Part shown: one piece after another, positions 55,349-55,560 of the stretch
Numbering within the stretch: the first letter of the stretch is position 1
How the letters are laid out: the number at the start of each line of letters is the position of its first letter
Assembly (NCBI GenBank): GCA_022800215.1
Contig: JAAWPV010000004.1
Span: forward strand, 1-64,000
Length of the DNA stretch: 64,000 nt
Direction of reading: 5' to 3'
Source: Oscillospiraceae bacterium
Lineage (GTDB): Bacteria; Bacillota; Clostridia; Oscillospirales; Oscillospiraceae
Translations under genes and position numbers: made by a program
Notes under the pieces: model-generated
Seen by the model: only the letters and a program-made list of their open reading frames with translations
The model's database searches: none
What the model was told of the DNA's origin: nothing

Positions 55349-55377
55349 TTGCCTTTTGGGGAAAACTCTGGTATGAT
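55349..55377 (+). promoter_or_regulatory. Candidate uraA promoter
   Basis: TTGCCT (55349-55354), 17 nt, TATGAT (55372-55377). Confidence 0.55.
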
Positions 55378-55406
55378 ACGACACAATGAGAAGGGAGGGA
55401 TCAGCC

Positions 55407-55484
55407 ATGACGGAGTGGAAAAGAAAGCCTTTTTTGATTTCGCTGGGGGCTGTTCTTCCCTTTTTTGATGGGTATTCATTTTGA
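55407..55484 (+). CDS. Candidate 25-aa leader peptide upstream of uraA
   Basis: aagggaggg SD; MTEWKRKPFLISLGAVLPFFDGYSF*; the stop codon overlaps the terminator stem. Confidence 0.6.
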   Translation: MTEWKRKPFLISLGAVLPFFDGYSF

Positions 55485-55515
55485 GACGACCGCTTTTGTG
55501 GTCGTCTCTTTTTTT
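55483..55515 (+). terminator. Leader terminator/attenuator upstream of uraA
   Basis: gagacgacc-gcttttgt-ggtcgtctc-ttttttt, located between promoter/leader ORF and uraA. Confidence 0.85.
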
Positions 55516-55560
55516 GCCCATCGGTACACAGCCGCGTAAGAAGAGAAAGGAGAAATCATT

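Follow-up and report, generated by a model that had tools for sequence, protein, structure and literature searches.

A probable pyrBI-type transcription attenuator upstream of pyrimidine-base permease genes in Oscillospiraceae

The region preceding uraA in the window (the whole 64,000-nucleotide stretch of Oscillospiraceae DNA analyzed here) is, most probably, a pyrBI-type, ribosome-coupled transcription attenuator belonging to a set that would control pyrimidine-base permeases. In Escherichia coli pyrBI, low UTP causes RNA polymerase to pause at U-runs, with the result that the trailing ribosome blocks the terminator. By a similar logic, the polymerase would here transcribe a short ORF led by a Shine–Dalgarno (SD) sequence and U-rich in its 3′ part, followed by a terminator beginning at the stop codon. 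When UTP is plentiful, the polymerase would outpace the leader ribosome, the hairpin would form and transcription would stop before uraA. When UTP is low, the polymerase would slow down in the U-tracts, allowing the ribosome to catch up and to reach the stop codon; once there, it would cover the 5′ arm of the terminator, giving read-through into uraA and more uracil import. We infer the UTP response, the translation of the leader and the pausing at the U-tracts from sequence, the link to UTP because of the permease targets, the selection for U and the relation to PyrR described below.

All the elements lie on the forward strand. A predicted sigma-A-type promoter with an extended −10 element (55349..55377; TTGCCT-N17-TATGAT, with TG ahead of the −10), similar −35/−10 elements being seen upstream of the relatives' leaders, is followed by the SD sequence AGGGAGGGA (55392..55400), recognized from the sequence and from the genus alignment, and by a leader ORF of 25 codons plus TGA (55407..55484; ATG at 55407, TGA at 55482–55484). 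This ORF, whose 25-aa translation is MTEWKRKPFLISLGAVLPFFDGYSF, has equivalents in 56 distinct leaders. It contains an upstream U-run, CCTTTTTTG / CCUUUUUUG (55428..55436), a main U-run, CCCTTTTTTG / CCCUUUUUUG (55458..55467), which lies 15 nt ahead of the stem and is the putative pause site of the polymerase, and a last U-rich stretch, TTCATTTTG / UUCAUUUUG (55475..55483), which adjoins the stem at a place where U-richness is common to the 56 leaders. The intrinsic terminator (55483..55515), GAGACGACCGC-TTTT-GTGGTCGTCTC plus T7, consists of an 11-bp stem, a UUUU loop and a U7 tail, and the genus alignment reveals compensatory changes in its stem. The predicted regulated gene (55561..56901, ATG at 55561) encodes a 446-aa protein that we take to be a uraA-type uracil permease, the name coming from the prior reading and sequence knowledge rather than from a family-library run. 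Promoter, SD-led ORF, U-runs, terminator and uraA had all been described in the first-pass annotation and are all present; the overlap that it reported between the stop codon and the terminator 5′ arm is exact, the stem starting at the second base of the TGA. The predicted fold and the alignment also indicate an outer pairing on either side of the terminator (55467..55522), between GAUGGGUA (55467–55474) and UGCCCAUC (55515–55522), which is kept in several genus members, with recurring GGGC/GCCC versions.

The first-pass annotation had proposed comparing uraA leaders in relatives, and the comparison found the ORF, the U-tract and the terminator to be conserved. We sampled uraA relatives from named genome contigs, 201 same-family genomes and 16 genus genomes; 67 automatic calls, minus 6 judged doubtful by eye, gave 61 leaders, 56 of them distinct after removal of near-duplicates (one is a codB leader, the others being of the uraA-type set). 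These leaders come nearly all from Oscillospiraceae, from many genera, and most Oscillospiraceae-type uraA genes close to that of the window share the layout; leader L012 belongs to a cultured relative, Pseudoflavonifractor capillosus. Their ORFs, a set partly selected for openness, are 15–38 codons long (median 25.5) and mostly start with ATG; a few run on through the stem (L006, L017). The Lachnospiraceae-type uraA genes that were sampled had no convincing leader, just weak calls such as L027, L040 and L063. The leader is a real, widespread feature of Oscillospiraceae, beyond what chance would give. Variants were also seen: L093 and L094 have a TTG start and a stop within the terminator loop, L101 has its SD within a terminator-like stem, and L134 has a terminator without a leader ORF.

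The position of the stop codon is compatible with masking of the terminator by the ribosome. If the leading edge of the ribosome is taken to lie 9 nt beyond the stop, a ribosome positioned there would cover 70% or more of the 5′ arm in 56/56 leaders, and 100% of it in 52/56. The 5′ arm, moreover, pairs less with the sequence upstream than with shuffled upstream sequence (0.26 versus 0.50, p 2e-8), so that no competing antiterminator, whether trp-like or riboswitch-like, is indicated. Both results agree with masking as it occurs in pyrBI.

The tails of the leader ORFs are strongly enriched in U. Across the 56 leaders, the U share rises from about 32–34% at positions −55 to −41 before the stem to 45–57% at −20 to −1, where C makes up just 15–27%; upstream U amounts to 42% in leaders versus 23% at ordinary terminators (p about 1e-24). 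The bias shows at third codon positions: NNU/(NNU+NNC) is 0.67 in the 13 codons nearest the stem, 0.53 in the ORF heads and 0.21 in uraA itself at these loci. The shift is common to Phe, Leu, Ile, Val, Ser, Cys and His codons, with for instance a UUU:UUC ratio of 95:25 in the leader tails versus 122:310 in uraA for Phe, and a CUU:CUC ratio of 42:4 versus 49:174 for Leu. Judging from this codon usage, U in the RNA is under selection, not any amino acid. TTTT is found in 46 of the 56 leader tails, versus 33 in mononucleotide shuffles, and TTNTTT in 33 versus 20. Dinucleotide shuffles of these 45 nt contain T-runs at least as long (5.0 versus 4.6 in the leaders), which points to U-richness, rather than run length, as what is conserved.

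The layout is dedicated to pyrimidine-base permeases. We defined a strict pattern (an SD-led ORF of 10–45 codons whose end falls at or inside a strong terminator, itself preceded by a run of four or more T), which matched the 64-kb window once, at the uraA leader. In 966 kb of collected loci, all the matches were uraA leaders, codB leaders or uraA-upstream fragments (the scan assigned a spurious downstream frame to a few of them, whose loci are nonetheless uraA). An SD-ATG ORF reaching the stem was found in 43/55 uraA leaders versus 5/281 other terminators of the same loci, and in 47/77 uraA upstream regions chosen only for a nearby terminator and not for an ORF. A covariance model built from 15 genus leaders was also searched in 16 whole genus genomes: it gave 19 matches with E<1e-11, 14 before uraA and 5 before codB, the training set holding most of the uraA leaders and 4/5 codB leaders lying outside it. 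The next-best match had an E value of 0.004, and the weak matches, upon inspection, were not leaders. Note that the identity of codB (cytosine permease) is likewise presumed from its sequence rather than from a family-library run. The codB leaders occur in five genus members (L086, at G181:C29:71907-72041, and L265–L268) and have peptides of their own type; the codB genes sampled from other genera (L224–L229) are without a leader.

PyrR is the usual regulator of pyrimidine genes in Bacillota. As the first-pass annotation had noted, no PyrR-type binding loop is recognizable here: an Rfam scan of the window and an RF00515 search of the genome both gave no match. The region upstream of uraA was readable in 86 of the sampled genomes, of which 35 have the leader, 13 have PyrR without the leader and 38 have neither; PyrR over the family cut-off is found in 0/35 leader genomes (Fisher p 6e-4, a value that ignores relatedness and comes mostly from MAGs). 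Counted by genus, 19 have the leader, 9 PyrR, 25 neither and 0 both (p 0.019, phylogeny ignored). Other genera of the family show an alternative arrangement, with pyrR immediately before uraA (L120, L122, L123, L129, L135, L148, L150, L151, L154, L162), and the uraA of some relatives has neither a leader nor an adjoining pyrR.

Nearly all the sequence-testable predictions of a pyrBI-like attenuator thus came out favorably, and that initial reading of the region gains support from the conservation of the leader, the amino-acid-independent enrichment in U, the lack of an antiterminator, the placement of the stop, the dedication to pyrimidine permeases, the failure to find a PyrR RNA and the non-overlap with PyrR.

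Other readings make different use of the same elements. The leader could be an amino-acid attenuator sensing the charging of Phe (or Ser/Leu) tRNA, ribosome stalling at Phe codons then shifting the folding; Phe indeed accounts for 120/709 codons of the leader tails, and the window peptide contains PFF. This is very improbable, for the third-position U is selected for many amino acids, and an enrichment in U whatever the amino acid encoded argues against Phe attenuation; besides, two leaders have no Phe codon and four have one, no antiterminator is apparent and the targets are pyrimidine-base permeases. Neither a conserved codon run of one amino acid nor an alternative antiterminator, the pair of features expected of a trp-, his- or phe-type attenuator, was found in the leaders. 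An unlikely but somewhat better candidate is a pause that NusG imposes at T-rich stretches of the non-template strand, which would make the leader a coupling attenuator that senses the status or speed of translation, not UTP. The frequent TTNTTT (33/56 leader tails, about 20 expected) is a spelling of the NusG pause motif. In B. subtilis, NusG pausing at T-rich DNA does gate a leader-peptide attenuator (PMC6851288). A general translation sensor, however, would be expected at genes other than those of uracil and cytosine permeases, and would not avoid PyrR genomes.

A PyrR-type or ligand-binding (riboswitch) attenuator has a very small chance of being at work in the window: PyrR usually regulates these genes in the phylum, and pyrR directly precedes uraA in some relatives, but neither RF00515 nor any other Rfam family matches, PyrR proteins over the cut-off are absent from all the leader genomes, and no aptamer is conserved, the leaders having just the SD, the U-tract and the terminator in common. 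It is hardly credible, finally, that the ORF serves to make a functional small protein, with the terminator doing no more than ending its transcript. An ORF with a good SD does recur in many genomes; yet the peptides score 0.134 in between-genera alignments versus 0.110 when shuffled, and the ORF is invariably found with one or other of the two permease genes.

The pyrBI-type reading rests on a likeness of logic. E. coli MG1655 pyrL is a 44-codon ORF with a U-run, CCGTTTTTCTTCCCG, about 20–28 nt ahead of the terminator stem, whereas the window U-run CTTCCCTTTTTTG lies 15 nt before the stem. Both systems have an SD-led ORF, a U-run followed by a GC-rich terminator that a ribosome can mask, no need for an antiterminator and a pyrimidine gene downstream. 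In pyrBI, termination is avoided only if transcription and translation are coupled across pyrL (PMC5021804). The differences are several: the phylum is another one, the peptides have no evident similarity, the predicted targets here are uracil/cytosine permeases, and the ORF usually stops at the stem, whereas the pyrL stem lies within the ORF, the stop coming 47 nt after the stem start. The window also lacks a T-run for reiterative transcription at the transcription start (the initial sequence after the −10 is ACGACACAATGAG), and it may have an SD:U-tract pairing. Since leader peptides from different genera resemble each other barely more than shuffled ones do, the link to pyrL is one of logic and probably convergent, common descent being neither shown nor needed. 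Note that the strict scan misses E. coli pyrL, probably through that late stop, and so a lack of matches elsewhere does not prove that a leader is absent.

Other known systems share parts of this scheme. PyrR attenuation (B. subtilis; RF00515) is also transcription attenuation of pyrimidine genes, including that of the uracil permease, in Bacillota; here, by contrast, there is no PyrR site, no PyrR in the leader genomes and a predicted translated ORF instead. In the B. subtilis tlrB (yxjB) leader, where a NusG pause is combined with leader-peptide attenuation, a polymerase pause likewise times a terminator-blocking leader ribosome, but that ribosome is stalled by tylosin, while the variable would here be the polymerase speed at the U-tracts (PMC6851288). 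The His leader peptides of bacilli establish that leader-peptide attenuators occur in Firmicutes, the amino acid being sensed there by codon content (PMC2965389). E. coli codBA and upp also place cytosine/uracil salvage under UTP control, not by attenuation but at the initiation step, through reiterative transcription and a switch of start site (PMC6245113). In the open-access papers searched, we found no description of pyrBI-type or UTP-sensing attenuation in Firmicutes, of a uraA leader peptide or of PyrR replacement.

As a phylum, Bacillota have been assigned to the bacteria with runaway (uncoupled) transcription (PMC13323073), a trait that would make ribosome masking weaker; either the family is coupled enough, or U-tract pausing restores coupling locally. 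The stop-to-terminator distance, a proxy for coupling that does not separate the groups, has a median of 15 in these bacteria and of 17 in 200 kb of E. coli. Because the proposed mechanism needs a ribosome that catches up with the polymerase, and this in bacteria counted as uncoupled, it would provide a natural setting in which to ask whether local coupling can be restored by pausing. If the pyrBI-type reading is true, the use of polymerase speed at U-tracts as a readout of UTP has a separate origin here, and it controls salvage importers rather than synthesis, in place of PyrR.

The leader may have an additional layer. Its minimum-free-energy fold in the window (z −5.5) pairs the SD region (55387–55405) with the U/C tract (55447–55466), a candidate long-range pairing spanning 55387..55466, and the genus consensus fold shows the same helix, with mainly one-sided changes. 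Over the 56 leaders, an SD pairs better with its own tract than with the tracts of others (−20.1 versus −17.3 kcal/mol; better in 43/56, p=5e-5) or with shuffled tracts (−15.3 kcal/mol). Purine SDs and pyrimidine tracts pair easily, and the SD:U-tract pairing of E. coli pyrL is not above shuffles; for these reasons we do not claim the pairing as part of the pyrBI type, and put forward a lock-out through it just as a hypothesis. It enters into a wider proposal that we consider tentative and on balance doubtful: an independently evolved UTP sensor would have taken the place of PyrR in much of a family of Bacillota, its U-tract both slowing the polymerase at low UTP and, once transcribed, pairing with the SD to lock out an unloaded ribosome, a one-shot kinetic decision workable even where the polymerase outruns ribosomes.

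Among 30 pyrB upstream regions, one has a similar leader (L210, G103:C292, about 1380–1460), namely MSVHYYNLNAAYGLFIS followed by the terminator TACCGGTTGTACCGGTA plus T8. We considered pyrB as a further target in the window's own genome and rejected it: it lies within a pyrC-carB-pyrK-pyrD-pyrF-pyrE-pyrB cluster whose start is without a leader, and no uraA-type leader was found for this pyrimidine biosynthesis operon. At the start of the pyrC-first cluster (L245, G000:C43), a short hairpin, AGGCCCGGTACGGGCCT, then TTTTC, comes directly after a promoter-like TTGACA..TAAAAT, without a leader ORF; judged from its layout, it is possibly a different attenuator of the biosynthetic operon.

Elsewhere in the window, positions 58646–62200 of the forward strand encode an 1184-aa protein that has, as seen by eye, Cys/His-rich repeats and a C-terminal LPATG-hydrophobic-basic tail and that looks like a sortase-anchored surface protein; ahead of it lies an ORF (57791–58372) that, also by eye, is signal-peptidase-like.
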